From assembly GCA_024278215.1 (NCBI GenBank), contig JAJRTR010000204.1:1-64000 (forward strand): 64,000 bases of DNA. The letters run 5' to 3'. Below, piece after piece: positions 5,602 to 53,355 of the stretch. This stretch comes from a bacterium. GTDB lineage: Bacteria > UBP15 > UBA6099 > JAJRTR01. Under the pieces are notes generated by a model. It was not told the DNA's origin. It worked only from the letters and a program-made list of their open reading frames with translations, and searched no databases. The position numbers and the translations under genes are program-made. The stretch's first letter is position 1; each line of letters starts with the position of its first letter.

Positions 5602-5780
5602 GAGCCAATTGCAAAATTATGTTCGAAGCGAGGTCGAACGAAATTATTCTGAAGCAAGGCAGAGGTGTAAAATCCTTGCAGGCGTACTTGCAGAGTACGT
5701 CGAGGACGATTTTGCGCCGACAACGCAGCTATGGACAATAGCAGCCGACCGCAGCCGAATCAGAATTTTACAATTGGCTC
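5602..5780 (+). mobile_element. Family A MITE-like element, copy A1
   Basis: GAGCCAATTGCAAAATTATG...CAGAATTTTACAATTGGCTC terminal inverted repeats, flanked by ATAA on both sides. Confidence 0.8.
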
Positions 5781-5809
5781 ATAAGAAAAAAAGTTTGTCG
5801 CCGGGCGCG

Positions 5810-7186
5810 TCATTTGCCCGAAAAATATTTTATCTGCAACCATTCTTTCAGATTGTCGCGTGCGTCCTCGACACCGATGAGTGAGTACTCCGCCTGCCAG
5901 TTGCTCTTCTCGGCAAACAGCATGATATATTCTTTCCCGATAATGTCTTCGTCTCCGAAAAACGCCGGGAGAGCGCCGGACTTGACATATATGTCCTTGC
6001 TCAGGATCTTGCCCTCATACACTTTATCAATGTGTACGTCGAGAATCCATTTTCTTATTTTGTACTCGCCCGGCTTCGAGTCTTCCACCTTTTTGCTCTT
6101 TATTTCGCCGAGAATTATGTATCCGGCGCGGCGCAGTTTTTTCGACAGCTTCGGACCGAATGGGGATATCTCGATCCGCACGTCAGACGCCAGTTCACGT
6201 GTCGTCTCATACAGCAACTTCTCGCGTGTACGGATGATGCCGAGGAGTTTGGAGCGGAGCCTCGACTCGTCACCTGTGTCGATATGCGCGAAAAGTTTTG
6301 TGTTCAGGTAGGGAAACGGCCTCTCGTACATAACGAGTGTGCGTGGCTGGAAGTCGGGTTTCTCGAAATATATTTTTATTTCTCTTAATTTCGGTCTCAT
6401 CACACGGAATTGTATCCTGCCGACGCCGCCGTTTTCGCCTGTACCGTTTTCGAATGCGTCATTGTTGTATGCCGCGATCGAAGGATACTCGGAAACGATT
6501 CCCATGATATCTTTATGTATAGCTTTTATAACTTTATCCGCGGCGGCACTGATTTTATTCTCATCGAGAATCCGTTTCGCGTTGAATGTCAGCCTGTTGG
6601 ACTCCGACAGCCCGGACCACCAGTTTCTCGGTTGCGGTTCGACAACCCGGTAGTCCGCGCCATACTCGACACGCAGGGCGTGTTCGCCTTCGAGCACAGT
6701 AAGTACTGTCAGCGTCATGATCTTTTCCTTCTCGCCCGGGTCCAGCCTCATCGCGTCCGCTGTCTCGGCGGATTCCGGTGGGTGGCTTTCCTTTTTTACG
6801 ATACCCGTTCCTGTTGTCGCCTTGTCGTCGGTGAATATCTGGAAATAAACGCCTTCTTTCTTATTTGTCGTCCATATCCTCTTGAAGTAACGTGTGTCTT
6901 TGCCGTTGTTTTGCAGGTAGACATCAATCACAGGTGTTTCTCCGGGCTCGTAGACTGCTTTTTTGCTGGTCAGATATATTTTCAAAGTCGGGTCGTACTG
7001 TTTTTCCTGCGGTTTCTTGTTTTTTTGCTTGCCGTACCCCTCCTGTTTTCTCTTCATCACGTTGCCGGGGTCCTCTGCGTGTGAAAGAGTCGAGCACATC
7101 AATGCAAGCGTAGCTGTAAACAATATGACAAAACAAGCAATTCTCATCGCGCTGTTCTTCGAGCCCATAATCTTTTCCTCCACCAT
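5810..7186 (-). CDS. Hypothetical exported protein
   Basis: Long ORF with signal peptide (MRIACFVILFTATLALMCSTLSHA); no family recognised. Confidence 0.75.
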   Translation of the reverse strand: MVEEKIMGSKNSAMRIACFVILFTATLALMCSTLSHAEDPGNVMKRKQEGYGKQKNKKPQEKQYDPTLKIYLTSKKAVYEPGETPVIDVYLQNNGKDTRYFKRIWTTNKKEGVYFQIFTDDKATTGTGIVKKESHPPESAETADAMRLDPGEKEKIMTLTVLTVLEGEHALRVEYGADYRVVEPQPRNWWSGLSESNRLTFNAKRILDENKISAAADKVIKAIHKDIMGIVSEYPSIAAYNNDAFENGTGENGGVGRIQFRVMRPKLREIKIYFEKPDFQPRTLVMYERPFPYLNTKLFAHIDTGDESRLRSKLLGIIRTREKLLYETTRELASDVRIEISPFGPKLSKKLRRAGYIILGEIKSKKVEDSKPGEYKIRKWILDVHIDKVYEGKILSKDIYVKSGALPAFFGDEDIIGKEYIMLFAEKSNWQAEYSLIGVEDARDNLKEWLQIKYFSGK

Positions 7187-7224
7187 CTAATGATACCACA
7201 ACGACAATGATTACACATTTAAAC

Positions 7225-9531
7225 TTAACCGTTTCGAGTGCGCAGGAGCCGTGCGACCGGTCCGAGAAAGGCGGCGAACACTGTCAGACAGGCCGGCAAC
7301 AGCAGTCTGAATGAACCGGCCACGCCGAGCAGCGGGAAAAGGATCGTACCCATAAGCAACGCTCCCGTACAGGCCCCGAACAAATCTGCGGCGTACAGGA
7401 AACCCGCCGCGCCGCTTTCCGTCATTCCTTTCCGCACGTTCCACAACGATACGGCACACGGATAAATAAATCCTGGTGCCGCACCCCCCGCAAAGATGAG
7501 AAATGTGATCGCGGCGGCATCGAATATCGTCGATCCGCTGCTCAGGTATGTATATGCGTAACCTGCGGCGGCGACCACCGCCAGGCCACAGGCCGCCGCG
7601 GGCAGGCTCCATGCCGCGCCGACACCGCGCCCCCGCGCGACACGCGCCCCGGCCGCCCCGCCGACCGCCGCGCCGCCCAGAAATGCCGCCGTCAGCAGTC
7701 CCAGGTATTGATATACAATTCCGAAAACCGTCTGGAAGTGAAAAATCAGCACAAGTTCCACAAGTATTCCCGTGAAGCCGACAATGAAGACTCCGCCGGA
7801 CATCGCGACATGGCTTCCGGGTCCGCCGGAAAAACCAGCCGCGAAAAGAATGGCGGCGGCAAGCAGGAAGTAAATCGTGATGTTTCCCGTTACAATACGC
7901 CTCGCCGAGCCGATAATCCTGTATGCCGGAGACCTGAAATATGTGGAAGTAAAAACGGAATGCAGAAAAACACTAACAGGCCGTTTGTCGGAATCCGGCC
8001 GCACATCGTCCCGGCTTGTAAGCCATTGGAAAGCGGCCCCCATTTTATCGTCCGTCATTGAATATTCCATTATGTCGTCGCTGAACTGCGACAGCGCGAA
8101 CCCGATCCGGCCGGCGTCGAAATAATACGCCGCCGAATCCGCGCTGAAATGTGCGGACTTTATTCCTCTGGCATTGAAACGCGCGGCGGCCTTTTCCGCG
8201 GAGATTTCGAGTTGTCTTCCGGGCGACCACAGAAGGAATGTCTTCGGCCCCGGAATGAGCAGTGGCATGGCGGCATCGAGTTGTTTGTATGTCGCGATTA
8301 TGCTCCCGAGCAGCGCGACTTCGGCGCTCCCCATATAGTTTTCAGTAAAGGGTACACTGGTTGCGGCGAGCCCCGATTCCGACAACCTGGCGCGCAGCAG
8401 CGAGAGGAACTCGACTGTAAAATAACGGTTTTGCTGAAGAGTGCGCGGCGCATCGGCTTCAATGATTATTACATCATATTTACGATCCGTTTTCGCCAGG
8501 AAGCGACGCGGGTCCCGCACGATTATGTCGACGCGCGGGTCGTCGTAAATCCACTTCAGATTATCGGGACACAGCCGCCTTCTCACAGCCTGCATCCGTG
8601 GATCGAGTTCCACCACGTCGATTTTTTCGATGCCGTGCTTGAGCGCTTCGCTGACGGTTGTCGCGCTTGCGCCGATTGTCATTACCCGGCGCGGGGCGGG
8701 ATGCGCCAGCAGGGGTATATGCGCGGAATACTCACCGAATACACTGTCTGGCACAGCGCCCGTGAATTGGCCGTTCGAGAAGATGCTGTACTGCTCGTCA
8801 TCTTTCAGCACTGTTATGTTGCCGTAGCCGGATTCCATGCTGAATTCGATGTTCCTGCCCCAGGCCGTTTCACGCGTGTGTTTTTCGACCCGGGCTATCC
8901 AGAACGGCGAAGAAATAAGCAGTACGGCAGCTACCGCGAGAACAACATTCCGGGTCGCGCCGCTTAAATTGAATGTTCCGGCGATAATGACGGCGAGTCC
9001 CGCAAGTGCGGCACACGAGGTCGGCGACAGCAGTTGCACGAGCAACAGGCTGAAAGTGACGCCCCCGACGACAGAGCCTGCCGTGTCGAGAGAATAAACG
9101 ATGCCCGCGCCGCCCCGCCCGCCTTCATCTTCGGCAGACCTGCATAAAACGGAGAATAGAATGCCTGTGAATACACTCACCGGCCCGAGCGCGATAAGCG
9201 CGGCGAGCAGCGTCGTTCCTACCGGTATCATTTCACCCTGGTGAAAACCCAGAAGCTGCCCCTGGCAACGCGCCCAGAAAATGGAAAAAGGTATCAGGAG
9301 CCCATACACGATAAGGAGCCACGCGATCGCAGAGGGCGGGGGTTTGAAAAACTTCACCGCAAGCCCCCCGGCCGTGCTCCCGACACCCACCCACAGCAGC
9401 CACGCGAAAAACACCAGCGCTATCGACAGTTCGTCGCCGCTGCTCGCGACCATCAACTCGCGAGCGAGCAACAACTGCGCTACCATCGCCCCCGCTCCGA
9501 CTGTAGCTATGGTCAGTGCTCGTTTATTCAA
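7225..9531 (-). CDS. Membrane protein with spermidine-synthase-like domain between two transmembrane halves
   Basis: TM halves around YGNITVLKDDEQYSIFSNGQ...VMTIGASATTVSEALKHGIEKIDVVELDP...FTVEFLSLLRARLSESG. Confidence 0.75.
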   Translation of the reverse strand: MNKRALTIATVGAGAMVAQLLLARELMVASSGDELSIALVFFAWLLWVGVGSTAGGLAVKFFKPPPSAIAWLLIVYGLLIPFSIFWARCQGQLLGFHQGEMIPVGTTLLAALIALGPVSVFTGILFSVLCRSAEDEGGRGGAGIVYSLDTAGSVVGGVTFSLLLVQLLSPTSCAALAGLAVIIAGTFNLSGATRNVVLAVAAVLLISSPFWIARVEKHTRETAWGRNIEFSMESGYGNITVLKDDEQYSIFSNGQFTGAVPDSVFGEYSAHIPLLAHPAPRRVMTIGASATTVSEALKHGIEKIDVVELDPRMQAVRRRLCPDNLKWIYDDPRVDIIVRDPRRFLAKTDRKYDVIIIEADAPRTLQQNRYFTVEFLSLLRARLSESGLAATSVPFTENYMGSAEVALLGSIIATYKQLDAAMPLLIPGPKTFLLWSPGRQLEISAEKAAARFNARGIKSAHFSADSAAYYFDAGRIGFALSQFSDDIMEYSMTDDKMGAAFQWLTSRDDVRPDSDKRPVSVFLHSVFTSTYFRSPAYRIIGSARRIVTGNITIYFLLAAAILFAAGFSGGPGSHVAMSGGVFIVGFTGILVELVLIFHFQTVFGIVYQYLGLLTAAFLGGAAVGGAAGARVARGRGVGAAWSLPAAACGLAVVAAAGYAYTYLSSGSTIFDAAAITFLIFAGGAAPGFIYPCAVSLWNVRKGMTESGAAGFLYAADLFGACTGALLMGTILFPLLGVAGSFRLLLPACLTVFAAFLGPVARLLRTRNG

Positions 9532-9576
9532 TGTGCAATCGGCTCAACTATCTTCGATTTGAAATATTGCTCCGCC

Positions 9577-10731
9577 TCAATCGGACAGCCAGTCGGGCAT
9601 CTCCAGCGGGAAAAGTATCCGCACATGTGTCAGGTCCTTGAGCGCGTCGTCTTTCCTGCCGACAAGACCCGGCATCGGTTGCCAGTCTCCACCATTCAAC
9701 CTGACATCGACGATGAACATATCCAGCAACTGTTCGGTCGTCTTTCCGCTCACCGATTGCTTGTAGTAGACCGGCCTTAGGAAATAGCGGAACAGCGGCG
9801 CTACGCCTTCGGTCGACGGATCGGTCACCGACGGCGGCCCGACAACCATCCACTGTGTCAGCAGTCTTGCATAGATCATTTCCGGGCTCATGCCGTGGTT
9901 GTCGGGTAGTATCTGGAATCCGCCGATACTGCCCACCGGCGATGTCGAGATGCAGATCACGCCCGTATGGTTCGCCCTGATGCGGCCGACGCCCGTGTAG
10001 AGCGATCCGCCGAAGCGGCCCGTGCCGAAAATGGGTTTTAAAACCTGCCCTATGATTTTGCTGTCACCGTCGGGATACGTTACTGTAATGAAGCCGCCGA
10101 ACCTGTTTTCGAATACTATTTCCGCCGGATAGCGCACAGGCCGCTCGACAACTATTGTCAGCCTGTCGCCGTTTTCCGGGTAGTACATCTCCGGCAGCGG
10201 TTTCGGCGCGCCGCCGTCCCTCTCGAGCAGTACCCGGTTGCCGACGAACGGGCTTTCCGCGCCGCCGAAAAATCGCTCGCCCGCAGGGATGTCGGTTATC
10301 ATCGACGCGCTTTTGGCATAATAAGAATGGTAGTTCTCCGGTTGCTCCATGAAGTCGGCGGGCAATATACTGAGCATCACACCGCGGTCCGCGTTCTGTC
10401 GCACTTTGATATGCACCGCGTTCACCGCCGTCGCGGCAACACGCCCGCGCGGCGCCCAGCCGCTCGCCGTATATCCTTTCTTATTAAGCAGCACGATGGG
10501 AACCTGCACCCTGCCGTATTCCGTCCAGTTTTCACCGCTGTCGCGGCTGATCCCGATCTCTCCATCGAAAGTGTTTTCGAATCGAATACGGAAAAGCTCC
10601 TCGAGCGCCGGATCGTTTTCACCGGCGACAACTTCCGTCGGACCGCGCTGGTCCTCGATCACGCCGCGCGCAGTCTGCGCCGCCGCGCACATCAACAATA
10701 CACACATCAAACCCGGTAAAAATATTTTCAT
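9577..10731 (-). CDS. Hypothetical exported protein
   Basis: 384-aa ORF with signal peptide (MKIFLPGLMCVLLMCAAAQTARG). Confidence 0.75.
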   Translation of the reverse strand: MKIFLPGLMCVLLMCAAAQTARGVIEDQRGPTEVVAGENDPALEELFRIRFENTFDGEIGISRDSGENWTEYGRVQVPIVLLNKKGYTASGWAPRGRVAATAVNAVHIKVRQNADRGVMLSILPADFMEQPENYHSYYAKSASMITDIPAGERFFGGAESPFVGNRVLLERDGGAPKPLPEMYYPENGDRLTIVVERPVRYPAEIVFENRFGGFITVTYPDGDSKIIGQVLKPIFGTGRFGGSLYTGVGRIRANHTGVICISTSPVGSIGGFQILPDNHGMSPEMIYARLLTQWMVVGPPSVTDPSTEGVAPLFRYFLRPVYYKQSVSGKTTEQLLDMFIVDVRLNGGDWQPMPGLVGRKDDALKDLTHVRILFPLEMPDWLSD

Positions 10732-11225
10732 TACCTTATTGCTCCCAGTTCGATTATTTCCGCTTTCCTTTTTTCCATGTCAACAATGCCGACTGTGCAT
10801 TTCCCTGTCAGGTATCCGCAGCACTCGCCGGGGTTTATCACGATAGGTTTGCCCTCACGCGCGACGACATCGTGCGTGTGACCGAAAGCCACGAGGTCCA
10901 CCGGAAGCGCCGCCATCACATCGTCGGGCATCGGCTCGTGCAGCAAGGCGATCCTGTAACCGCCCACCTCGAAAAACGCGGGCGGTTTCAGCAGTTCGCC
11001 CACAGGCTCGAACATCTGTTTCAGGAAGAGCCACTCACCATCGTTGTTGCCGAAAACAGCCACGCACTTCTCGAAACAATCATCATTAAAGAGCGGCACG
11101 ACAAACGGAGATATGATATCACCGCAGTGCAGTATACATTTCACCGCGCGCCTCCTGAACACATCTACCGCCGCTTTCGTGCGGTCGAGGTTGTCGTGCG
11201 TGTCCGAAATCATTCCTATCAGCAT
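10731..11225 (-). CDS. YfcE/MJ0936-family metallophosphoesterase
   Basis: MLIGMISDTHDNLDRTKAAVDVF...LHCGDI...GNNDGEW...GHTHD...NPGE. Confidence 0.9.
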   Translation of the reverse strand: MLIGMISDTHDNLDRTKAAVDVFRRRAVKCILHCGDIISPFVVPLFNDDCFEKCVAVFGNNDGEWLFLKQMFEPVGELLKPPAFFEVGGYRIALLHEPMPDDVMAALPVDLVAFGHTHDVVAREGKPIVINPGECCGYLTGKCTVGIVDMEKRKAEIIELGAIR

Positions 11226-11413
11226 GTTTGATCACCTTCCCGGCGGGACTGTCATTTCATGATACTCGAATTCTGTGCCGTATGGAACAAATCACCGCAA
11301 AATGTAGCCTGAAATCTTTAGAGCGTTTCAGCCGCGGCCATCCCTTTGAAACCCTGCATCGGTGTGTTATAATTCGGAATCGTTAGACCTCGACGATCTC
11401 GGAGAAAATAAAA

Positions 11414-12715
11414 ATGAATCTGGCAGTTATTGGAATAGGCTATGTAGGACTCGTCACAGGCGCAGTGTTCGCGGACCTGGGCAACATGGTGATCTGTGTC
11501 GACAACATGGAAGAAAAAGTCAGGATGCTCGAGAACCATGAGATGCCGTTCTATGAACCCGGCCTCGAGGAAATAGTGGCAATCAACCACGAGGACGGGC
11601 GGTTGTCTTTCTCGACCGATCTCGCAGATGCGGTCCGGCGCTCCGAGATAATCTTTATCGCCGTAGGCACTCCGCCCATGGACGACGGTCAGACAGACCT
11701 CTCCTATGTCGAAGCGGTGGCGGCGGAGATCGGGAGAAACATCAACGACTACAAAATAATCGTCAATAAGAGCACAGTGCCCGTCGGTACCGGCGAAATG
11801 GTCAAGGATATCATCAACCGATTCAAACCGTCGAACATAGATGTCGATGTCGTGTCCAACCCGGAGTTTCTTTCCGAGGGAACAGCCATATCCGATGCCA
11901 TGTCGCCCGACAGGATTGTAATCGGCGCGCCCAACAAGCGGGTGGCGATGAAACTGATCGAACTCTACTCGACGATGGAAAAACCGATGGTGATCACATC
12001 GGTGCGGAGCGCGGAAATGATCAAATATGCCAGCAACGCGTTTCTTGCGACAAAAATATCATTTATAAACTCCATCGCAAACCTGTGCGACAGGGTCGGC
12101 GCCGACATAGAAGAAGTCACCCGCGGCGTGGGACTCGACAGCAGAATAGGCAATAAGTTTCTGCGCGCCGGGATAGGATTCGGCGGCTCGTGTTTTCCCA
12201 AAGATACGGAATCTCTGCTATATGTGTCCAGGAAATACGGCGCGGAAATCGAGATTATCGACGCAAGCATCAGGGTGAACCGAAAACAGCCTGATATCCT
12301 TATGAAAAAAGCGGCAGACGCACTCGGCGGACTCGAGGGGAAAACCATCGGCGCACTGGGGCTCTCCTTCAAACCCGGAACGGATGATCTGAGAGAATCG
12401 AACGCTCTGGCGATAGTATCCGCATTGCTGACGGCGGGTGCCACGGTCAGGGTCTACGATCCGATGGCAATGGAAAAGTGTAAACCGATGTGTCCGGACG
12501 CAACATATTGCGAGGAACTCTACAAGGTGGCCGAAGGCGCGGACGCTGTGATGCTGCTTACGGAATGGAATAAGTTCAAACACCTGAACTTCAACAGGCT
12601 GCGGGAACTGATGAGTGGCGACATGTTTTTCGACGGTCGGAACATATACGACCCGCAGGTGGTCAGAAGAGCGGGCCTGAGATATTACGGCATCGGCAGG
12701 GGTGCGGACGGCTGA
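11414..12715 (+). CDS. ugd: UDP-glucose 6-dehydrogenase
   Basis: MNLAVIGIGYVGLVTGAVFADLGN...GGSCFPKDTESLLY...GLSFKPGTDDLRES. Confidence 0.95.
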   Translation: MNLAVIGIGYVGLVTGAVFADLGNMVICVDNMEEKVRMLENHEMPFYEPGLEEIVAINHEDGRLSFSTDLADAVRRSEIIFIAVGTPPMDDGQTDLSYVEAVAAEIGRNINDYKIIVNKSTVPVGTGEMVKDIINRFKPSNIDVDVVSNPEFLSEGTAISDAMSPDRIVIGAPNKRVAMKLIELYSTMEKPMVITSVRSAEMIKYASNAFLATKISFINSIANLCDRVGADIEEVTRGVGLDSRIGNKFLRAGIGFGGSCFPKDTESLLYVSRKYGAEIEIIDASIRVNRKQPDILMKKAADALGGLEGKTIGALGLSFKPGTDDLRESNALAIVSALLTAGATVRVYDPMAMEKCKPMCPDATYCEELYKVAEGADAVMLLTEWNKFKHLNFNRLRELMSGDMFFDGRNIYDPQVVRRAGLRYYGIGRGADG

Positions 12716-13839: not shown

Positions 13840-13878
13840 GAGCCGATTGCAGCAGAATCAGAATTCTGCAATCGGCTC
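13840..13878. mobile_element. Family A deletion derivative A5 (solo terminal palindrome)
   Basis: GAGCCGATTGCAG-cagaatcagaatt-CTGCAATCGGCTC, perfect 13-bp stem, flanked by TAAT on both sides. Resembles the two ends of the full element joined. Confidence 0.75.
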
Positions 13879-14006: not shown

Positions 14007-14193
14007 AGTATCATGTCAACAAAGAAAAGACGTAAGAAGGGCAATCGTAAAAACGAGAAAAGAGACAAGGGCAGGTCACCGTACCCCGCCTCAACTTGTG
14101 CCTGTATAAACCGTTTTCGCGAGAAATATGATCAGGCGCGGGTCGGTGACCGCGCACTATACATCTTGCGCATTTACAAGTGTGACACGACAC
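14007..14193 (+). mobile_element. Family B MITE-like element, copy B1
   Basis: AGTATCATGTCA...TGACACGACACC ends. Interior (GGTCACCGTACCCCGCCTCAACTTGTGCCTG..AA.CCGT.TTCGCGAGAAATATGATCAGGCG) nearly identical to 29521-29709. Confidence 0.75.
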
Positions 14194-14373
14194 CAGTCGC
14201 TTTTTGCATTTCTGCCGTTATCCGCCCCCACAGATTCCACGAAGGAAACAATAACTTGATATTTCAGGATATTATTTTTTAATTGTAAACAGAACGATGG
14301 GAAAGCATGTTAGGGAACCTCTGATAGAGGGTATAAAGTAAGCAGGGCAATATGCTGGTGAGGGTTTTGTGCC

Positions 14374-15288: not shown

Positions 15289-15313
15289 ACCGGTTCCGGC
15301 GCAAAATGTCCTG

Positions 15314-15499: not shown

Positions 15500-17542
15500 A
15501 TGCAGATGAAAGTCGAGTTGGGTGCAATGAACATTTCCGAAGTAATAAATAATACGGTTGCCGCGTTAACCTTTCTCATGATCATAATTACGTCGGGTTG
15601 CGGCGGTGGTGCTGTCGGCCCCGTCGGAGGCACGGGAACCGGAGCCGGCGGACTCGCGCCTTCGACCGATACATATTCGCTTTCAAGATATTTCAACCTT
15701 GCCGATACTGCTGTATACGACTACGACGACGGTGCGAAAATAGTATTCGGACAGGGCCCGCTGAATCTTTACCCGTTTCTGGGCAACAGCTACGGCGACG
15801 TATTCCGGTTTCAATTCAAGGAAGACGACCCGGACGTTATCGACACTTCATTTTTTGCCTTCTCCAGCGACACCGCTCTTCTCTACTATGGCCGCTATGA
15901 AAAGACTTCGGGGATCGGAAAATGTGTTGTATTCAGTAAGCCGGTCGAGGTGGCGCCCGGCACAGTTACATCCGGCACGACATATACGGATCAGGCGGAT
16001 TTTGTTGTGTATAATCAATGCGGTCCGGACGGTGCCACACAGGATGTCACCGGTTCCATATCGTTTTCTTTCACTGTGGAAGGCGAGGAAACGATCGACA
16101 CGACTGTCGGCAGTTTCAGTGTCGTCAAGTTCTCCCTTGTTGAATCGTGGAGCGGGACAGACAGCAGTTCGCAGAGTGTGTCGGGCACGAGGACTGTCGC
16201 CTTCTGGATGGCGCTCGACACAGGCCCTGTAAGGTACGAGAACTCGGATACCGGACAGGCGTACCACTCCGTGAATACGGCGATTGCAGGCGACACGGTA
16301 TACACATCACTCGGCAGTGTTTGCGGAAACGGGACAAAGGAAATGGGAGAGGAATGTGACGACGGCAATACAACGTCAGGAGACGGATGCTCGTCTGTTT
16401 GCCTTGATGAAAACCTCTGGATCAAAACGTATGGCGGAACATACGACGACGGAGCGACGGCACTCGAACAGACTTCCGATGGCGGGTTCATTGCCGCGGG
16501 ATACTACATACCCGATGGTTCCGCCGCAACCGACCTGTGGCTGCTGAAACTCGATGAGGCAGGCGGGCAGGAGTGGTCGAAGACATTCGGCGGCGCGTCG
16601 GCGGACGACAGGGCGAATTCAGTACGCCAGACGACGGACGGCGGCTATATCGCGGCGGGCTGCACATCTTCGTCGGGTGCGGGCGGTGAAGATTTCTGGT
16701 TGCTGAAAGTCGACAGCGCCGGCGACCTGTCGTGGGCGCAGGCTTACGGCGGCTCGTCCGACGATTGCGCGCAGTCCGTGCGTCAGACGACGGACGGCGG
16801 CTATATCGCCGCCGGTTACACGTCTTCGTCGGGCGCGGGCAGCGGCGACGCATGGTTGCTGAAAGTCGACAGCGCGGGCGGCCTGTCATGGTCGCAGACT
16901 TACGGCGGTTCGTCCGCGGACTATGCCTATTCGGTGCGTCAGACGGCGGACGGCGGCTATGTCGTAGCGGGCAATACTTCTTCGTCGGGCGCGGGCGGCA
17001 GTGATGTGTGGGTGCTTAAACTCGATGCCTCAGGCAACGAGACATGGTCCAAAACCTACGGCGCTTCGGGCGATGACTACGCATACTCGATACAGGAAAT
17101 TACCGGCACCGGATATATTGTCGCAGGCTCGACCGAATCTTACGGCGCGGGCGGCAGCGATGTGTGGGTGCTTCTTCTCAATGAACTCGGCAACCAGGTA
17201 TGGACAGGCACATTCGGAGACACGGGAGACGAAGCAGGATATTCAATTATCGCTGAATCCGGCGGCAACTACATTGTGGCAGGCGAAAAGGAATCATCGA
17301 ACGATAATAATATATGGTTGCTGAGTATTACGGATGCCGGGGTCGACGCGTGGACGCAGACTTACGGTGGTTCTTACGACGATACGGGCCGGGCTGTCGT
17401 TCAGACAACAGATGGCGGATTCGCGGTGGTGGGAGAGACCAGGTCGACAATGGACGGCGGTTCGGACGCCTGGATAATGAGAACCGACTCCTCCGGCGAG
17501 TGCGCCGAACGCCTCGACTCTATGGTCCTGCTCAGGCAATGA
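15500..17542 (+). CDS. Secreted lipoprotein-like protein with DUF4215-type Cys-rich repeat and seven propeller-like repeats
   Basis: ITSGCGGG lipobox-like; [27 protein letters not shown]; seven ~52-aa units of [48 protein letters not shown]. Confidence 0.8.
   Translation: [680 protein letters not shown]
16414..17490 (+). repeat. In-frame tandem repeat, ~156-bp unit, about 7 copies
   Basis: Units 2-4 are near-identical at the DNA level (cagacgacggacggcggctatatcgc...cttcgtcgggcgcgggc). Confidence 0.85.
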
Positions 17543-19582: not shown

Positions 19583-19661
19583 ATCTCCGCTTGAACCAGT
19601 GAAGTAAGCCTCTACGCTACCGCTCCCCAGCTATTGTCTGAAATGCGATAAACTCACCTTA

Positions 19662-19839
19662 GAGCCAATTGCAAAATTCTGATTTTGCTGCGGTCGGCTG
19701 CTATTGTCCTTAGCTGCGTTGTCGGCAAAAAATCGTCCTCGACGTACTCTACAAGTACGCCTGCGAGGATTTTACACCTCCGCCTTGCTCTGCACAATTT
19801 CGCTCGACCTCGCTATGAACATAATTTTGCAATTGGCTC
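19662..19839 (-). mobile_element. Family A MITE-like element, copy A2 (reverse orientation)
   Basis: GAGCCAATTGCAAAATTCTG...CATAATTTTGCAATTGGCTC, flanked by CTTA on both sides, between convergent gene ends. Confidence 0.85.
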
Positions 19840-19900
19840 CTTATAGTACGATGAACACAGGCTATTACGAGCATTATTGCTTGAGCGACCGGTATTGGGC

Positions 19901-29520: not shown

Positions 29521-29709
29521 AGTGTCGCGTCAAGAAGAAAAGCCGTAAGGAAGGTCACCGTAAAAACGATAAACAAGGGCGGGGTCACCGTACCCCGCCT
29601 CAACTTGTGCCTGCAAAAACCGTGTTCGCGAGAAATATGATCAGGCGGAGTACGATGCCACCGCTCTTGTCTACATATCTTGCGCATTTAGAAGTGTGAC
29701 ACAACACTA
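29521..29709 (+). mobile_element. Family B MITE-like element, copy B2
   Basis: AGTGTCGCGTCA...TGACACAACACT ends with flanking TA; interior matches B1. Its right boundary forms the TAG stop of the 29707..31125 gene. Confidence 0.8.
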
Positions 29710-31125
29710 GTTCCATTTCGCGCTCAGAAAAGACAACGCGTCTTTTATCAGGCCGCCCGTCCTGAGCGAATGAAAAAACCGTTTTATAATGTATTTCGGC
29801 CTGAGATACACACGCCTGAAGGCGAGTTTATACAGTTCCTCGATCTCGTCCCAGCCGAGATTCGGATGATCGTACAGCGGCACGTCCGTCCGGTGAAAGA
29901 TGTACCTGCTCCAGTCTTTCGTCCTGACGAGCCCCCGTGAATCCAGTTGCTCGAACATTACTGTGCCGGGCAGAGGAACGGCGATATCGAACTTGCTGAT
30001 TGTCATATCGAGTTCGATGGCGAAATCAATCGTGTCCATGATCGTAGCGCGCGTGTCCTCGGGAAGCGCGACAATAAAGAAGCCGAATGTTTCGAGACCG
30101 TGTTTTTTGCATAGCGACACGGCACGCCGAATGTCGTCCTTGTTCAGGCCCTTGGAAACACTGTCGAGCACAGCGTCGTTTCCCGATTCGACGCCTAAAG
30201 CGACCTGGTAGCAGCCGGCGCGCCTGAAAAGGACGCACATTTCATCGTCGACACGGTCGGCGCGTATGCCGTTGAACAGGTTGAAAGGAATCGTCACATT
30301 GCGGTCGATCATCAGGCGGCATATCTCTTTCGCGCGCGCGAGATTTGTCGTGAAGCCGTCGTCCACGATATGAATCTCCCTGAAACCGTGCCGCCGTATC
30401 ATGTACTCTATTTCGTCGACCACGCGCTCCGCCGACTTCGCGCGGAACCGCCGACCGAATATCGTTTTGTCGCAATATATACAACCGAACGGACACCCCC
30501 TGCTCGTTTCTATATAACCGCCCGGTCGGCGGCGTTCTGTAAGGTGCGACATGTGGTATCGCCCGAGATCGAACATTTCCCACGCCGGCATCGGCAGCGA
30601 GTCGAGATCATCTATCAGCGCTCGACGCTCCGCCGACACTTCGCCGTCTGCGCCACGAGATGCAACGCCAGGCACAGCAGCCGGAGCGTCGCTATCGAGC
30701 AGATCGCAAAGTGTGAAGTCCGACTCGCCCAGCGCGACATAATCCACACAGTCTGTCGCGAGTGTTTCCTCCGGGAACCGTGTCGCGTGCACTCCTCCGC
30801 ATATAACAGTTGTCTCGGGAGAAATCGCTTTTACTGCGGCCGCGATGTCCATTGCGCCGCGCCATGTGGGTGTTATAGATGTAATACCCGCCGCATCGGG
30901 CTCAAACTCGAGAATTGTTTTCCTCAGCAACGCGCCGGTGTGTTCTCCAGCGATATCCGCGACATCGAGGTCCAGCACGCGCGGACTGTGGCCGCACGCG
31001 GCGAGTGCTCCGCCAAGGGCGGCAAGCCCGAGCGACGGGAGGACCGGCGCGCCGACTTTAACATTGGTTTCAAGGTATACCCGGCGTGTGCCAGGCGGAT
31101 TTATAAGGAGGATTCTTTTCTTCAT
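29707..31125 (-). CDS. B12-binding-domain radical SAM protein
   Basis: LGLAALGGALAACGHSPRVLDLD...ETSRGCPFGCIYCDKTIFGRRFRAKSAERVVDEIEYM. Confidence 0.92.
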   Translation of the reverse strand: MKKRILLINPPGTRRVYLETNVKVGAPVLPSLGLAALGGALAACGHSPRVLDLDVADIAGEHTGALLRKTILEFEPDAAGITSITPTWRGAMDIAAAVKAISPETTVICGGVHATRFPEETLATDCVDYVALGESDFTLCDLLDSDAPAAVPGVASRGADGEVSAERRALIDDLDSLPMPAWEMFDLGRYHMSHLTERRRPGGYIETSRGCPFGCIYCDKTIFGRRFRAKSAERVVDEIEYMIRRHGFREIHIVDDGFTTNLARAKEICRLMIDRNVTIPFNLFNGIRADRVDDEMCVLFRRAGCYQVALGVESGNDAVLDSVSKGLNKDDIRRAVSLCKKHGLETFGFFIVALPEDTRATIMDTIDFAIELDMTISKFDIAVPLPGTVMFEQLDSRGLVRTKDWSRYIFHRTDVPLYDHPNLGWDEIEELYKLAFRRVYLRPKYIIKRFFHSLRTGGLIKDALSFLSAKWN

Positions 31126-45976: not shown

Positions 45977-46698
45977 ACCTCCTTGTACCCCTTGCCGAGG
46001 TACGCTCGTTTGACTTCGCTGTTCTCCTTCAGGTCTTCGACAGGGCCCTGGACGACGATCCGGCCGGTTTCCAGAACGTAGGCGCGCGAGGCGAGATTGA
46101 AAGCCTGCCTGACGTTTTGTTCGACGACAAGCAGAGTGAGTCCCTCCGCGCGGAGCCTGCGCAGAACGCTGTAAATCTCTTCTACAATGGTGGGCGCCAG
46201 GCCCATCGAGGGTTCGTCGAGCAGCAGGAGTTTCGGCTTGGACATCAGGGCGCGGCCGATAGCCACCATCTGCTGTTCACCGCCGCTGAGAGTGCCCGCA
46301 TACTGTTTTTTCCGCTCGGCGAGCCGCGGCAGCATTTCATATATTTTTTCAAGGTCGTCGTCGATCTCGGACTTATCGGCTGAAAACCGGTGGTATGCGC
46401 CCAGCATGAGATTATCGAGCACAGTGAGAGCGGCGAAAAGTTTGCGGCCTTCGGGCACCAGCGCGATGCCTTTGCGGACGATCCTGTTCGCGCTCGTCCC
46501 GGCGATGTTTTTGTCCATGAACAGGAGTTTGCCCCTGCGCGGCGGCAGCAGACCGGTGATGGACTTCATGAGTGTGGTCTTTCCCGCGCCGTTCGCTCCT
46601 ATGAGGGCTACCGCTTCGCCTTCGCGCACATGCAGGGACACCCCGCTGAGGACGCGCAGATTGTCGTAATATGTCGATATGCTTTGTATCTTCAGCAT
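45967..46698 (-). CDS. livF: Branched-chain amino acid ABC transporter ATP-binding protein
   Basis: [21 protein letters not shown]...[39 protein letters not shown]. Confidence 0.92.
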
Positions 46699-46730
46699 TT
46701 ACAGAACCCTTTGTTATCGAAGTCGGCATT

Positions 46731-46797
46731 CGTGCCCAAACAAATGAGGTTTGAGCACGGCACGCAATCTATAGTTCGAGCACGGCATACAGAGTTT
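46731..46797. repeat. Family C palindromic repeat, second copy
   Basis: CGTGCCCAAACAAATGAGGTTTGAGCACGGCACGCA...TTCGAGCACGGCATACAGAGTTTC; matches 5293-5334. Confidence 0.6.
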
Positions 46798-46826
46798 CAT
46801 CGTTCCTGCCGTCCCTTTCATCAACC

Positions 46827-46939
46827 AGTGTCGTGTCAGGCGGCAAGTGTCGACAGAGGCATGGTTACCGCATCCCGTCTTCTTTCTTTTTCGCACTATC
46901 CATCCTTCATACACGTCATTATACCTTTGACGCGGCACT
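46827..46939. mobile_element. Family B MITE-like element, short divergent copy B3
   Basis: AGTGTCGTGTCAGG...TTTGACGCGGCACT ends; interior GGTTACCGCATCCCGTC resembles GGTCACCGTACCCCGCC. Confidence 0.55.
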
Positions 46940-46970
46940 AAGGCGAAAACATTTTCTCATTCACAGCGCG

Positions 46971-48569
46971 TTAAGGACCGGCTATCCTCTTCACTCCGAA
47001 CGAAACGATGTGGCGGCGGAAGTGTTTTTCAAGTGCCGCATAATGTTCTTCCTCGAATTCATCCAGCACATCCATAATCCTGTCGTAAAAAACAAAATTG
47101 CCCGCGTCGTCTTTATGTGTCAGAACAGAGCCGTAAGTAATGTGAATGAGTTGTCTCGCGTTGTTTTCGTCCATAAGCGGTTCGAGTTCGTTGTCCGAAA
47201 GTGTGCCGACAACAGGAATCTTTGCAAGGTCGGTCGTTACGTGATATGTCGCCCTGTCATGTTCGAAACGGGAAAGTGCAAACTTGTGTATCTCCCTGTA
47301 AAGGGCGGGAGCATGCCGCGCAACTATCCGTATCGCTTCAATATAGCTCGTGCCTGCGGTTTTTTCGTGGAACAGCCCGCGTGTCAATTCTCCGATCACA
47401 GGGAAAACACTGAACTTGTCGCTGCCTGAATGGATACTGAGTTTGTATGGTCCCATGCACCGGGCGATCAGCGCGTGAAGCAGCAGTGAGTCGCGCAGCA
47501 TATCAATGTCGCCGATGTAATCTATGCCTTTCTGGAACTCGCCGATATAGCGCGGTGCAAGGCTCTGTGCGCTGATCGCATTCGCTTTAAGTTCGGCTGC
47601 GACAAAAAGGTGTTCTTCGGGCGTAGTCGGCTGGGAAGTCTCATCGACCGACATCTCGAAATCGAAATTCCCGGCACTGCCGAGCAGTTCCACAAGCAGC
47701 GCGTGAAGCTTAATTGTGTGTTTTACGGCGGGATAGTACTTAACTGCAATTCTCGCCAGTTTTATTTCATCGAAGATGAATGTCGCCGTGAATCCTGTGT
47801 CCGGGTCAGTAAGGGAAATGTCATTTTCCGTGTACCTTTTGACCATAGCAGCCTTTTCGGCATCATCATTGAACAGAGCATCGAATGCCTGCACCAGTCG
47901 GCTGCCGCTCATGTCGTCTGCGTCATGATTGAGTTGTGCGGAAGGATCGATCGTGTAGAAGGTGAAACCCGCTCCGGCGGTGCGGCGCACATCGTCTTCA
48001 GTTTTCAGGTGGTCGGCATCTGCGCCGAACGGTTCCCTGTATCCCTCCTGAAAAACACTCCAGCAGGCATCGTCCATCACCTGTTGCGGTGTGCGGCTCG
48101 TGCGTTCCATTTCCCTTATGGATTGTTGTGGAAATATCGGGCGTATGTCGTAACCCGCGGCGGCCCTGATGTGGCCGGGAGTTGCTATGCCGAGCCGGTC
48201 ACCCATGCCGATAGATGCTTCGAGCCCGAGTATGGAGGGCGCTGTAAAAGGAAGCGTTTTGCGGAGTGCGCCGGCGTTTTGCGCAGACGCGGCACATTCC
48301 TTTATGAACACGTCCCTGCCGCCTGCGGTTATCTTCATCACGCTTCCCGCGAACTCTTTCCCCGGGTCGTCATCGCCGGGCTTGATTATCATGAGTTTGC
48401 GCGCGCGCGGCGCTTTTCGCAGGCAGAACACTTCTCCTTTGTATGTGCATGCGGATGTGGCGTACATAGCTGAATCCGCAACTGCGATTTTCTCTTTAAT
48501 CGTATCAGAAAGTGGGCCTGTTTGATCGAAACAGTTATTGCTGATAAGAATTTCAACTATATTGTTCAT
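46971..48569 (-). CDS. Tagaturonate epimerase (UxaE)-like protein
   Basis: 532-aa ORF (SILGLEASIGMGDRLGIATPGHIRAA...FTFYTIDPSAQLNHDADDM); family by recall. Confidence 0.55.
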   Translation of the reverse strand: MNNIVEILISNNCFDQTGPLSDTIKEKIAVADSAMYATSACTYKGEVFCLRKAPRARKLMIIKPGDDDPGKEFAGSVMKITAGGRDVFIKECAASAQNAGALRKTLPFTAPSILGLEASIGMGDRLGIATPGHIRAAAGYDIRPIFPQQSIREMERTSRTPQQVMDDACWSVFQEGYREPFGADADHLKTEDDVRRTAGAGFTFYTIDPSAQLNHDADDMSGSRLVQAFDALFNDDAEKAAMVKRYTENDISLTDPDTGFTATFIFDEIKLARIAVKYYPAVKHTIKLHALLVELLGSAGNFDFEMSVDETSQPTTPEEHLFVAAELKANAISAQSLAPRYIGEFQKGIDYIGDIDMLRDSLLLHALIARCMGPYKLSIHSGSDKFSVFPVIGELTRGLFHEKTAGTSYIEAIRIVARHAPALYREIHKFALSRFEHDRATYHVTTDLAKIPVVGTLSDNELEPLMDENNARQLIHITYGSVLTHKDDAGNFVFYDRIMDVLDEFEEEHYAALEKHFRRHIVSFGVKRIAGP

Positions 48570-48601
48570 GTTTCATCTCCACGATTCTGCAATCGCTCTG
48601 C

Positions 48602-48753
48602 GTGTATCAGATAGATATTTTATTACCTCCGGCAGCGAAATGTGAAGAAATTGGAGCAGAATGTGCATTTGTGTCGAAACACCTTTCCATTCTGAAGGGC
48701 GCGGGAATTGTTGCAGACGATAAACACGGCACGCAGGTTTATTATACACTAAG
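48602..48753 (+). pseudogene. ArsR-family HTH regulator remnant ending at repeat A3
   Basis: ECAFVSKHLSILKGAGIVADDKHGTQVYYTL matches the ArsR helix-turn-helix/wing pattern; both ends missing, frame runs into the repeat. Confidence 0.65.
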
Positions 48754-48931
48754 GAGCCAATTGCAAAATTATGTTCGTAGCGAGGTCGAGCGAAATTGTT
48801 CAGTGCAAGGCGGAGGTGTAAAATCCTCGCAGGCGTACTTGTAGAGTACGTAGAGGATGATTTTGCACCGACAACGTAGCTGAGGACAATAGCAGCCGAC
48901 CGCAGCCGAATCAGAATTTTGCAATTGGCTC
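48754..48931 (+). mobile_element. Family A MITE-like element, copy A3
   Basis: GAGCCAATTGCAAAATTATG...CAGAATTTTGCAATTGGCTC; flanks TAAG/TAAA. Confidence 0.85.
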
Positions 48932-49551
48932 TAAATAAAGATGCCTTTTGTAGTGCCTTTGCCTTCGCGGACGATGAGCACATCATCGCCTTCGCTGAAG
49001 TCGATGACGGTGGATGGTTCGCGAGGGATGATGCCGCCGTCGAGAATGTAGTCGACAGCATGGCCAAGCTTGTCGCTGATGTCGTCGGGATCGTCGTAAT
49101 AGGAGCGGTCGGAGGCCATGGCGGTGGTGCTGATGATGGGGTTGCCGAGTTCTTCGATGAGCGCCTGGCAGATATTGTTGTCGGGCACCCTGATGCCGAC
49201 GGTTTTTCGCTTTGTCATGACGAGTTTGGGCACTTCCTTTGTGGCGTTGAGGATGAAGGTGTAGGGGCCGGGGAGCAATTCTTTCATCACACGGTAAGCT
49301 GCGTTTGAGACTTGTGCGTAGCGGCTGATGTCTTTGAGGTCGGCGCAAATAAAAGAAAGCGCTCTTTTCTTTTTGTGTGGTTTCAGTCGGTATATCCTGT
49401 CGATGCCCTTCTTATTGAAGAGATCGGCGCCCATGCCGTAAGTTGTGTCGGTGGGATAGATGATAACCCCGGATTTTCGCAGCGAATCGACGGCACGGCC
49501 TATCTGGCGTTTCTGTGGATACGTAGGATTTACTTTCAGAAGAACTGACAC
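48931..49551 (-). CDS. tsaC: L-threonylcarbamoyladenylate synthase family protein
   Basis: GVIIYPTDTTYGMGADLFNKKGIDRIYRLKPHKKKRALSFIC...GPYTFIL...TVGIRVPDN. Confidence 0.93.
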   Translation of the reverse strand: MSVLLKVNPTYPQKRQIGRAVDSLRKSGVIIYPTDTTYGMGADLFNKKGIDRIYRLKPHKKKRALSFICADLKDISRYAQVSNAAYRVMKELLPGPYTFILNATKEVPKLVMTKRKTVGIRVPDNNICQALIEELGNPIISTTAMASDRSYYDDPDDISDKLGHAVDYILDGGIIPREPSTVIDFSEGDDVLIVREGKGTTKGIFI

Positions 49552-49600
49552 GTAAAAAAACTCCCTTGAAGGTTTAGTGCATCAAAGACAAACTGTTTGT

Positions 49601-49945
49601 TCAGGATTCGCTGGTATCGCTTTTTGCGGCGGTGGCGGCGGCCTGTTCAATGAGTTCGGCGACTCTGTTTTTCAGCAGGTCGCGTTCCTCCTCGGCGGAG
49701 CGCAGTTGTTTTTGCAGTACTTTTGCGTTTTTCCATGATTTCACCTGTCGTCCCAGATCGAACAGCCCCATCAGGACAACACCTGCCGTAAAACTTATAA
49801 GTATCAGGATTGCGACTGATGTACGCCATGTCTGAAATCCAGGGAAATTCACTGGGACATTCGTATTGTTGGCAAGCGCGAAAATCGCTACTACCAGAAG
49901 GAGCGCGAGTGATAAAACAACATATAATTTCTGCATATACAACAC
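49601..49945 (-). CDS. LapA-like (DUF1049) membrane protein
   Basis: VVLSLALLLVVAIFALANNTNVPVNFPGFQTWRTSVAILILISFTAGVVLMGLFDL. Confidence 0.75.
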   Translation of the reverse strand: MLYMQKLYVVLSLALLLVVAIFALANNTNVPVNFPGFQTWRTSVAILILISFTAGVVLMGLFDLGRQVKSWKNAKVLQKQLRSAEEERDLLKNRVAELIEQAAATAAKSDTSES

Positions 49946-50019
49946 CTCCCGCTAAAACCTGGCGCCGAATGTAAAAACAACAAATGTCTTTATCCCACAC
50001 CGGCAAAATATGCGGTCGG

Positions 50020-50985
50020 CTACTCATCCTCCGGACCGAGATAGAGGTAGCGCTCGAGCAGCCTGTCGTAACCTGTCCATCGCGAGTTTTGAACGTGGGT
50101 TGAAGAGTTCTCGATTATCTGTATGAAGCGTTTTGTCTGCGCGTCGAGATTTTCCAGGAAATGCAGAGCGCAGGCTTCGGCTGTTTTCGGTCTTTTGGGC
50201 GAGCCGGTAGCGCCTTCGCCGTGGTGGCTGACGACCATGTGGAGCAGTTCGTTAGCAAGTTCTTCAGGGAAATCGCTGATCGAGTTTATTTTTTCGAGTA
50301 CCATCTGCTGGCCCAGAACGATGTGGCCGAGCAGGCGCCCTTTGTCTGTGTAGTCGACTTTCCGGTCGAAACTCATCTCCACTGTCTTGCCGATGTCGTG
50401 AATGATAACGCCGGTGACAAGCATATCCCGGTCGAGTTGCGGATAGAGTTCGCAGAGAGTGAGCGCTATTTTCATGCAGTTTCGTGTGTGCTCGAGCAGG
50501 CCGCCGAGATAGGAGTGATGGACGGACTTGGCGGCGGGGCTTCGTTTGAATCCTTCGGCGAATTCTTCATCGAGAAAAAAACCTTCCAGAATCTTCCTGA
50601 GAAATGGATTCTGAATAGTCGGAATGGTGTCGAGGATGTCCTTGAAAAGCGCTTCGATATCGAGGTCGCTGACGGGGATGAAGTCCGACGGGTCATATTC
50701 GTTTTCGGTCTTGGTCCTGAGTTTTTCCACATTGATCTGGAGTTGCCCGTTGAAGACAACGACTCTGCCGTCGACATGTACTATGTCTCCGTCGGCCGCT
50801 TCCCGCCTGTACCGCTCGCCTTTGTCCCAGCACACACCTTTTATTTGTCCGGTTTTGTCCAGGAAAGTGAATATCGCATACATTCCCGGCTTGCTCTTGA
50901 ACTTGAAAAGATTGCCCTCCTCGATCTGAAGAAAACTCGACACATAGTCTCCCTCATGGAGGTCTTTGATCATTTGTTTTGCCAA
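50020..50985 (-). CDS. YhaM-like 3'-5' exoribonuclease (OB-fold plus HD domain)
   Basis: SVHHSYLGGLLEHTRNCMKIALTLCELYPQLDRDMLVTGVIIHDIGKTVEMSFD...GHIVLGQ...HMVVSHHGE. Confidence 0.9.
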   Translation of the reverse strand: MAKQMIKDLHEGDYVSSFLQIEEGNLFKFKSKPGMYAIFTFLDKTGQIKGVCWDKGERYRREAADGDIVHVDGRVVVFNGQLQINVEKLRTKTENEYDPSDFIPVSDLDIEALFKDILDTIPTIQNPFLRKILEGFFLDEEFAEGFKRSPAAKSVHHSYLGGLLEHTRNCMKIALTLCELYPQLDRDMLVTGVIIHDIGKTVEMSFDRKVDYTDKGRLLGHIVLGQQMVLEKINSISDFPEELANELLHMVVSHHGEGATGSPKRPKTAEACALHFLENLDAQTKRFIQIIENSSTHVQNSRWTGYDRLLERYLYLGPEDE

Positions 50986-51078
50986 TTGAAAATATCCTTT
51001 CCGGGATCCAGCAAAGTTTGCGGCATTTCGACCGCGTTATTTTTATCTTCACAGGGATTATATATCAAAACTCGTAAT

Positions 51079-51125
51079 GATCCAATTGTAAAATTATGAT
51101 TCGGCTGCGGTCGGCTGCAATTGTG
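51079..51125 (-). mobile_element. Family A truncated copy A6 (one end only)
   Basis: GATCCAATTGTAAAATTATGATTCGGCTGCGGTCGGCTGCAATTGTG resembles the start of A2; preceded by TAAT. Confidence 0.65.
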
Positions 51126-51238
51126 TGGGTGAAACGATATTCATCGTTCCGGGGCTCTGACCCGGAACGTATGGTCTGAACGCTCTGCATCACCATAGAA
51201 AACAACTTGCTTTCCAGGACAAAAAACGAAAAGTTTTC

Positions 51239-51264
51239 TAACCCGGATTTCTCACAAAGAAATC
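51239..51264. repeat. Family D short palindromic repeat, reverse orientation
   Basis: TAACCCGGATTTCTCACAAAGAAATC is the reverse complement of 1904 copy. Confidence 0.5.
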
Positions 51265-51300
51265 ATGGATTCCGGGGTTATGCGCCAGAATCGGGAAATG

Positions 51301-51329
51301 AAAAAAGCCCCACGGATTGAGGAGCTTTT
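51301..51329 (-). terminator. Putative terminator downstream of tRNA-Ile
   Basis: Minus strand AAAAGCTCCTCAATCCGTGGGGCTTTTTT. Confidence 0.6.
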
Positions 51330-51332
51330 GAG

Positions 51333-51406
51333 TGGGTGATCGCAGATTCGAACTGCGGACCTCATCCTTATCAGGGATGCGCTCTAACCGACTGAGCTAA
51401 TCACCC
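51333..51406 (-). tRNA. tRNA-Ile(GAT)
   Basis: Minus strand GGGTGATTAGCTCAGTCGGTTAGAGCGCATCCCTGATAAGGATGAGGTCCGCAGTTCGAATCTGCGATCACCCA; cloverleaf with GAT anticodon. Confidence 0.97.
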
Positions 51407-51658
51407 GCAACGGAGAAAGTGTAACAACAGCGGGTTTGTGTGTCAAGATTTACTCCCATGTTTTATGGTCGAGCGCATGTTGATACTGGTGTTGATTATT
51501 GTGTTTTGCGGCAGGGGGGGGTTATATAATCACGCGATTATTTCATAAATGTGTTGACTGTAACATGAAAAAAAGAAAAACAATTTTGACAATATATAAC
51601 AAATAAATAAAATACGTATTGCAGTAGTATTTACCTTATATGACCGGAGACTGGAAAA

Positions 51659-53176
51659 CTGCTGAAAAAAATACTGATAGTTATAGTTCTTGCGCCGCTG
51701 ATTATTGCCGGCGCGGCTTTGCGTGCAACGGCTCAGGCAGGCGGTGACAACGTGATACGGATAAACCTGGTTGTGAGCGATCAGAGGATACTCATTTATT
51801 CGGGTTCTGACCGGGGATTGCATACCGGACAGAAGTTGAAGGTGTTCAGGGGGCAACGCCAGATCGGGCTTATCGAGTTGACCGAGGTGCATTCGAGCTA
51901 TTCCGTGGCCCGGGTGGTGTCGAAGACTGAGGACTTGCAGGACATGGATGTGCTTGGCGCGCCCGCACCGGAGGCGACGGAGAAGGTTGCTGCCTCGAAG
52001 AGCGCGGCGACCGGCAAGACTGCGGTGGAGAAAAAAACTGCGGTGGCGAAAAAGGCTTCTTCGCGGAAGACTGATGCAAAAGCTGAGACTACGAAAAAAG
52101 AAACGAAAGAGAGTGCGGAAAAGAAAACAACTGAAAAGAAGAGCGGCAGGGCTTCGTCCCGGAGGTCGTCGCGCGGCAGCAGTAAGGCGGCTTCGGATGA
52201 CGACAAGAAATCGGACGCCGGGAAGAGTTCGAGTCGAAGTTCGAGAAGACGTAGCGCGAGCAAAAGCGGCAGCTCTGAGGATGCGTCAAGCGGCGACTCC
52301 GAAAAGAAAAGCACATCAAGCCGCAGCAGGGGCAGATCGAAGAGTTCTTCTTCCGCCGCCGATAAAAGTAGCGATAAGGATAAGGCAGGTGCAACCAAAA
52401 CTGAAAAGGCCGCAAAAGAGAAGTTGAAAGTGGTGAGTCCGCTGCTGTATAAGTTTCCGACCAGCATGGGCGGTACGGGACTCTGGACTGTACCGACAGC
52501 CGACATACTGGATAAGGGGCACTATGCCGCTTCTTATTACAGGGGTTGGTACAGTGCCGCCCGCAGCGGATATGTTTACGGCCCGGACACCTCGTCTTAC
52601 ATAGAGTCCATAGATTACGATGAAGATGTTTTTTCGATGACTTACGGGCTTGGCAACAGGCTTGAGGTGTATTTCGCGCTGACTAATGTGTCGATCACGA
52701 GCGTGAAGAAAACGACGAACATGACGCCCGCGTTCGATCGTTCGTCGAATTCAGACCTGGACGGAAATGCGATAGGTATCAAGTATAATCCCGGCAAGAA
52801 TTATGTTCTGAAAGAGACAACACATAAGAAGTGGGATTTCGCGCTGGGCGGAACGAGAGTGCAGATGGACAATGTGGACGGCAGTGAATTCTATGGAGTA
52901 GTTTCGCTGCCGCTCAAGAAGTTCAACATGCACGCCGGTTTATTCTACTACAATCTCGAAGGCATGAGCGGTAAGAACTTCGGGACGATGATGGGAGTTG
53001 AATTTCCGCTTCGTTCGGACCTTTCGCTGATCGGCGAAGGGAAGCTTTTCCAGTCCAACTACACATGGAACGCCGCGCTTCGTTATATCTACCAGGAGAG
53101 GGGCGCGTTGCTCCTGGGTATTTCTGATACAGACGACACGCAGGTGAAACAGGTTGGTCTGTCATATTCATATTAG
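51659..53176 (+). CDS. Exported outer-membrane barrel-like protein with long Ser/Lys/Arg low-complexity linker; apparent CTG start
   Basis: In-frame LLKKILIVIVLAPLIIAGAALRATAQA upstream of track start 51719 (TTG); low-complexity region ~51990-52430; barrel-like C-terminus (LGISDTDDTQVKQVGLSYSY). Confidence 0.7.
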   Translation: MLKKILIVIVLAPLIIAGAALRATAQAGGDNVIRINLVVSDQRILIYSGSDRGLHTGQKLKVFRGQRQIGLIELTEVHSSYSVARVVSKTEDLQDMDVLGAPAPEATEKVAASKSAATGKTAVEKKTAVAKKASSRKTDAKAETTKKETKESAEKKTTEKKSGRASSRRSSRGSSKAASDDDKKSDAGKSSSRSSRRRSASKSGSSEDASSGDSEKKSTSSRSRGRSKSSSSAADKSSDKDKAGATKTEKAAKEKLKVVSPLLYKFPTSMGGTGLWTVPTADILDKGHYAASYYRGWYSAARSGYVYGPDTSSYIESIDYDEDVFSMTYGLGNRLEVYFALTNVSITSVKKTTNMTPAFDRSSNSDLDGNAIGIKYNPGKNYVLKETTHKKWDFALGGTRVQMDNVDGSEFYGVVSLPLKKFNMHAGLFYYNLEGMSGKNFGTMMGVEFPLRSDLSLIGEGKLFQSNYTWNAALRYIYQERGALLLGISDTDDTQVKQVGLSYSY

Positions 53177-53177
53177 T

Positions 53178-53355
53178 GAGCCAATTGCAAAATTATGTTC
53201 TTAGCGAGGTCGAGCGAAATTGTTCGGAGCAAGGCGGAGATGTAAAATCCTCGCAGGCGAACTTGTAGAGTACGTCGAGGACGATTTTGTGCCGACAACG
53301 CAGCTATGGACAATAGCAGCCGACCGCAGCCGAATCAGAATTTTGCAATTGGCTC
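53178..53355 (+). mobile_element. Family A MITE-like element, copy A4
   Basis: GAGCCAATTGCAAAATTATG...CAGAATTTTGCAATTGGCTC; flanks TAGT/TAGA, starting 1 bp after the TAG stop of the upstream CDS. Confidence 0.85.

Follow-up and report, generated by a model that had tools for sequence, protein, structure and literature searches.

An abundant orphan MITE family whose ends match those of ISUnCu17-type insertion sequences in other genomes

Introduction

Both IS1182-derived MITEs and high-copy bacterial MITEs are already known. The IS1182-related MITEs of Methanosarcina acetivorans, which are related to ISMac2, comprise an element of 160 bp in 14 copies and one of 169 bp in 7 copies (PMC3852290). 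For the 160-bp element the table of that study gives the values 26 and 4, which we take to be the lengths in bp of its inverted repeat and its duplication, respectively (PMC3852290). Among bacterial MITEs, Chunjie (Geobacter uraniireducens), ERIC and the Correia element measure about 100-250 bp and are present in tens to hundreds of copies, with ERIC reaching 711 copies in Photorhabdus luminescens (PMC10969869).

Here we describe an unusually abundant further example, found in a 64-kb stretch of bacterial DNA (hereafter the window) and across the genome of its host. Three points are new: how far this orphan family has expanded, the attribution of its ends to the ISUnCu17 type, and the finding that MITEs from several phyla share one identical 17-bp end.

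Results and Discussion

Copies in the Window and Across the Host Genome

The initial annotation had reported four near-full copies in the window, flanked by 4-bp duplications and unaccompanied by a transposase. On re-reading, the coordinates, ends and orientation of all four agreed exactly, and the flanks were as claimed, with two perfect duplications and two with one mismatch (Table 1). At copy 4, the left flank contains the stop codon of a predicted ORF. Two truncated right-end pieces are additional to these copies, and the 17-bp end, allowing up to 3 mismatches, matched 10 times in the window against 0.2 expected. No transposase was present among 40 of the 43 predicted genes (all except three long ORFs), and a profile search of the window's contig returned no match to PF01609, PF13701 or NF033551.

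Table 1. Copies of the element, their flanks and other features in the 64-kb window.
Feature	Position	Strand	Details
Full copy 1	5602-5780	+	179 bp; left end GAGCCAATTGCAAAATT, right end GAGCCAATTGTAAAATT with 1 mismatch
Copy 1 duplications	5598-5601 and 5781-5784		ATAA / ATAA; perfect
Full copy 2	19662-19839	-	178 bp; both ends exact
Copy 2 duplications	19658-19661 and 19840-19843		CTTA / CTTA; perfect
Full copy 3	48754-48931	+	178 bp; both ends exact
Copy 3 flanks	48750-48753 and 48932-48935		TAAG / TAAA; 3/4 matching
Full copy 4	53178-53355	+	178 bp; both ends exact
Copy 4 flanks	53174-53177 and 53356-53359		TAGT / TAGA; 3/4 matching
ORF ending in copy 4 left flank	51719-53176		TAG stop codon
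Truncated right-end piece	13841-13878	+	Consensus positions 141-178; 89% identity
Truncated right-end piece	51079-51124	-	Consensus positions 133-178; 89% identity
Mo/W-cofactor (Moco) riboswitch RF01055	5449-5571	-	72 bits (cut-off 36)
TonB-dependent receptor gene	3221-5320	-	
Palindromic repeat CCCGGATTTCTCACAAAGAAATCCGG	51243	+	
Palindromic repeat CCCGGATTTCTCACAAAGAAATCCGG	1925	-	
Dispersed repeat GGTCACCGTACCCCGCC...	14074-14207		
Dispersed repeat GGTCACCGTACCCCGCC...	29583-29721		
156-bp unit, three tandem copies	16591-17058		Within ORF 15500-17542

The host assembly comprises 4.55 Mb in 207 contigs and is about 95% complete. A search of the whole genome, one of the checks proposed in the initial annotation, found the 17-bp end (up to 2 mismatches allowed) 332 times in forward and 330 times in reverse orientation, as compared to 0 for a reversed-pattern control. 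By these end-match counts, the family numbers about 300 dispersed elements. Individual copies were compared in a sample of 1.83 Mb of host stretches, partly picked around known matches, so that density in the sample is biased upwards. It contained 114 full copies, in near-equal orientations (58/56) and no two of them identical, together with 61 partial copies counted away from stretch ends. Alignment of the flanks, another proposed check, showed them to be non-homologous between copies.

The element is 178-179 bp long, carries no transposase gene, and has perfect 17-bp inverted ends in its consensus. Internally deleted forms range from 46 to 169 bp, and those down to 46 bp are likewise flanked by duplications. 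A 178-bp group, which includes all four window copies, accounts for 74 of the 114 sampled copies and differs from its own consensus by a median of 3.8%; a 179-bp group makes up the other 40, at 7.0% from its own. The 178-bp group is the younger and the 179-bp group the older, which suggests at least two waves of spread. Many contig ends of the host assembly coincide with copies, and the family helps to account for many of its breaks. The 17-bp end was absent from six genomes of the same order, and phage and plasmid collections held no DNA similar to the 178-bp unit.

Among the other features of the window, a Moco riboswitch sits just upstream of the gene for a TonB-dependent receptor, suggesting cofactor control of an outer-membrane importer; copy 1 adjoins promoter-like sequence of this unit. 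The window also carries a palindromic repeat family (29 copies in the 1.83 Mb), a second dispersed repeat, and an ORF with an internal tandem repeat.

Target Duplications and Empty Sites

Perfect 4-bp duplications flanked 64 of the 110 full copies with both flanks, far above the number in shuffles (mean 1.97, maximum 7, n = 1000), so the duplications noted in the window hold in a larger set of copies. Duplications of 3, 5 or 6 bp gave no comparable signal in the same 110 copies. Across the 64 copies with perfect duplications, the duplicated target was 78% A+T, and the base following the duplication was G or A in 61.

Empty sites were sought by joining both flanks of a copy and searching the product against the same genome. 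The copy at L110:5166-5343 splits another repeat, intact versions of which, in L053 and L076, carry a single TTAC. Likewise, the insertion at L145:9199, where the duplication is 5 bp, has an uninterrupted paralogous site in L139, and that at L126:15469 has uninterrupted paralogous sites in L075 and L087. Taken together, the 4-bp duplications and the empty sites require transposition. The element is short and gene-less, with inverted ends, 4-bp duplications, high copy number and paralogous empty sites, and its membership among MITEs is supported by the copy number, the duplications, the empty sites and the hairpin described below. The initial annotation had proposed non-autonomous transposition, and the dispersed copies, duplications, non-homologous flanks and paralogous empty sites all agree with that proposal.

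Other repeats occur at or near some of these sites. The repeat interrupted at L110:5166 is partly related to the GGTCACCGTACCCCGCC repeat of the window. Another MITE-like host family, with ends like CCCGCATATTTCACCAATGCGGG, is found for example around L126:15469 and L075:12423 (44 exact seeds in the 1.83 Mb), and a repeat related to it contains a copy of the 178-bp MITE.

Candidate Autonomous Partner

The initial annotation had suggested looking for an autonomous element with the same ends. Such a class of elements was found, with up to 16 of 17 bases matching at both ends, but only in other genomes. A DDE transposase search of genomes holding MITE-like pairs of the 17-bp end yielded a first intact element in Lentisphaerota (L253:1278-2674), 1.4 kb long, with a 371-aa transposase and ends GAGCCAATTTCAAAAGT / GAGGTAATTTCAAAAGT. 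At 19 loci with homologous transposases, a few of them near-identical, we sought the best inverted repeat around each gene without using the motif, and in 16 this was the GAG..TTKCAAAA end. These 16 elements, each with a DDE transposase and all outside the host, have ends GAGNNNNTTKCAAAA. The closest, L305 (ends GAGCTAATTGCAAAATT / GAGCCAATTGCAAAATG), shares 16 of the 17 bases of GAGCCAATTGCAAAATT at both ends, while the ends of L280 (GAGGCAATTGCAAAAGT / GAGCCAATTGCAAAACT) match the MITE end at 15 and 16 of 17 bases. Perfect 4-bp duplications flank L298 (TATT), L299 (CATA), L304 (ATCC), L292 (ATGA), L294 (TCCT) and L291 (TGGT); the majority of the 16 ISs with clear ends have none. The intact IS at L280:879-2388 (Lentisphaeria) has TCATAAT on one side and ATTATGA on the other, which form an inverted repeat in place of a direct duplication.

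The transposases contain DUF772 and DDE_Tnp_1 domains, and their plasmid relatives are annotated in RefSeq as IS1182 family, ISUnCu17. The best NCBIfam model is NF033551 (IS1182), yet with 98 and 79 bits against a cut-off of 270; the family name as applied here thus rests on RefSeq annotation and similarity, with a score below the NCBIfam cut-off. On the match of the ends, the putative autonomous partner is identified by kind, as an IS1182-annotated ISUnCu17-type element.

Given these results, we consider it very probable that the family consists of short non-coding derivatives which have retained just the ends that an IS1182-type (ISUnCu17-like) DDE transposase recognises, and we infer from the sequences that an ISUnCu17-like transposase moved the host copies. 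Supplied in trans, it would bind the 17-bp ends GAGCCAATTGCAAAATT and insert the 178-bp unit at AT-rich positions, preferably in a Y-N4-R context; repair of the staggered cut would then leave the 4-bp duplication.

In the host assembly (~95% complete), a protein search for an ISUnCu17-type transposase came back empty, and NF033551 matched short C-terminal scraps only, unconnected to these ends. The IS1182-model scraps in L295 and L296 were rejected as partner, being without these ends; one merely has a MITE inserted alongside. We infer that the source IS was lost from the host or is unassembled, and a multi-copy IS may have been collapsed or missed in so fragmented an assembly (207 contigs, about 95% complete).

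Alternatively, the MITEs might owe their spread to a transposase from a different family (IS5, IS1380, IS4 or other) with coincidentally similar ends. The host, where no ISUnCu17-type transposase was found, does hold an IS4-like element (L094), an IS1634-like element (L093), a truncated DDE transposase (L092) and an IS1380-type remnant (L112), and members of IS5 can also give 4-bp duplications. We nevertheless regard this alternative as unlikely. The IS4-like element is rejected as partner because its ends (CCAATACCGTTCAGTTAAGC) bear no relation to those of the MITE, a matching end pair was not found around the other two DDE_Tnp_1 genes, and up to 16 of 17 bases agree between IS1182-type and MITE ends on either side. 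The IS1380-type remnant adjoins a copy, and lies outside what is an ordinary MITE. End pairs spaced 1.4 kb and 2.3 kb apart (L062, L104) were likewise dismissed as autonomous elements, with ordinary genes lying between truncated pieces. A separate repeat with CAATACYGTTYACTTAATGC, found at L127:3331, L051:3048-3181 and L086:6211-6367, resembles the ends of the IS4-like element and is possibly an IS4-derived MITE.

Hairpin Structure

As had been proposed for the whole element, the 178-bp consensus folds end to end into a single imperfect hairpin (-80.8 kcal/mol and z -8.6 as RNA; z -6.8 as DNA). The copies could accordingly be read as a selected functional hairpin, a REP- or ERIC-like RNA or protein-binding element serving regulation or mRNA processing and not spread by transposition. 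The strength of the fold would suit such a role, as would the count of full copies within predicted genes (0 of 114; simple ORF caller, 1.83 Mb) and the compensatory pairs (25 versus 10 in shuffles). However, a MITE built of inverted ends would fold regardless, the intergenic placement of all full copies is weak evidence because insertion itself would split a gene, and the subfamilies could account for the slight surplus of compensatory pairs. Both orientations are, moreover, equally common in the sample, and transposition is needed to account for the 4-bp duplications and the empty sites. Rare or private variants show no pair-preserving preference on either strand (18 versus 10, 28 versus 32, 70 versus 50); selection on RNA structure is therefore not supported, and we make no claim of it. 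We judge the functional reading to be very improbable.

Segmental duplication or misassembly might be suspected from the many contig ends at copies, where the family breaks the assembly. The target duplications and the empty sites refute this reading, and it deserves practically no credence: from one copy to the next the flanks are unrelated, all 114 full copies are distinct, and most carry a duplication of their own.

The Same End in Other Phyla

One genome per species was searched for the 17-bp end; in such a collection we estimate about 30 chance matches, and the statements here concern the matches listed. These comprised scattered singles and close inverted pairs, several of the pairs with 4-bp duplications. 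Inverted-pair elements among the matches listed measured 163 bp in Simkaniaceae, 167 bp in Sphaerochaetaceae, 128 bp in Bryobacterales, 113 and 211 bp in Victivallis and Victivallaceae, and 145 and 102 bp in Lentisphaera, and the identical 17-bp end was present, again among the matches listed, in MITEs of Chlamydiota, Spirochaetota, Lentisphaerota and Acidobacteriota. When eight of these genomes were searched whole, they gave 20 to 341 end matches (up to 3 mismatches) versus 0 to 6 for the control. Beyond the ends, the interiors of the other-phylum elements had nothing detectable in common with the host family. In viral contigs the exact end occurred only as single unpaired matches, and the ISUnCu17-type transposase was not found in any viral contig.

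In Bryobacterales (L192, L202, L215), MITEs with the same end are inserted within a palindrome, CCGGGGACGGAGTACTC ... GAGTACTCCGTCCCCGG, as if stem-loops were targeted, a placement reminiscent of the palindromes that some IS1182 members are reported to target (PMC5678879).

A tentative and somewhat doubtful extension would treat GAGCCAATTGCAAAATT as a token common to phyla, with unrelated MITEs of the four phyla and of the host lineage retaining or converging on one identical end since ISUnCu17-type transposases repeatedly enter horizontally, amplify carriers and vanish; MITEs would then outlive every partner IS.

Comparison With Known Elements

The family clearly links orphan MITEs of very high abundance to one transposase subgroup, and leaves the existing understanding of how MITEs work unchanged. 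The Methanosarcina MITEs are similarly short and assigned to IS1182, a likeness drawn from the features listed for them. They occur in 14 and 7 copies, as compared to about 300 in the host, and their partner IS is named, whereas that of the host family is absent from the assembly. Chunjie, ERIC and the Correia element resemble the family in their described size and abundance, but are other elements. IS1272 (IS1182 family; PMC5678879) belongs to the same broad transposase family as the proposed partner; it replaces stem-loop targets without duplications, whereas the host family leaves direct 4-bp duplications. ISUnCu17 and its relatives (Aeromonas, Comamonas, Acinetobacter plasmids, Lentisphaerota) differ from the MITE in being about 1.33-1.62 kb long with a transposase, and in the plasmid members 3-6 of the 17 end bases are not those of the MITE; like the MITE, these elements have ends GAGNNNNTTKCAAAA and several show 4-bp duplications.
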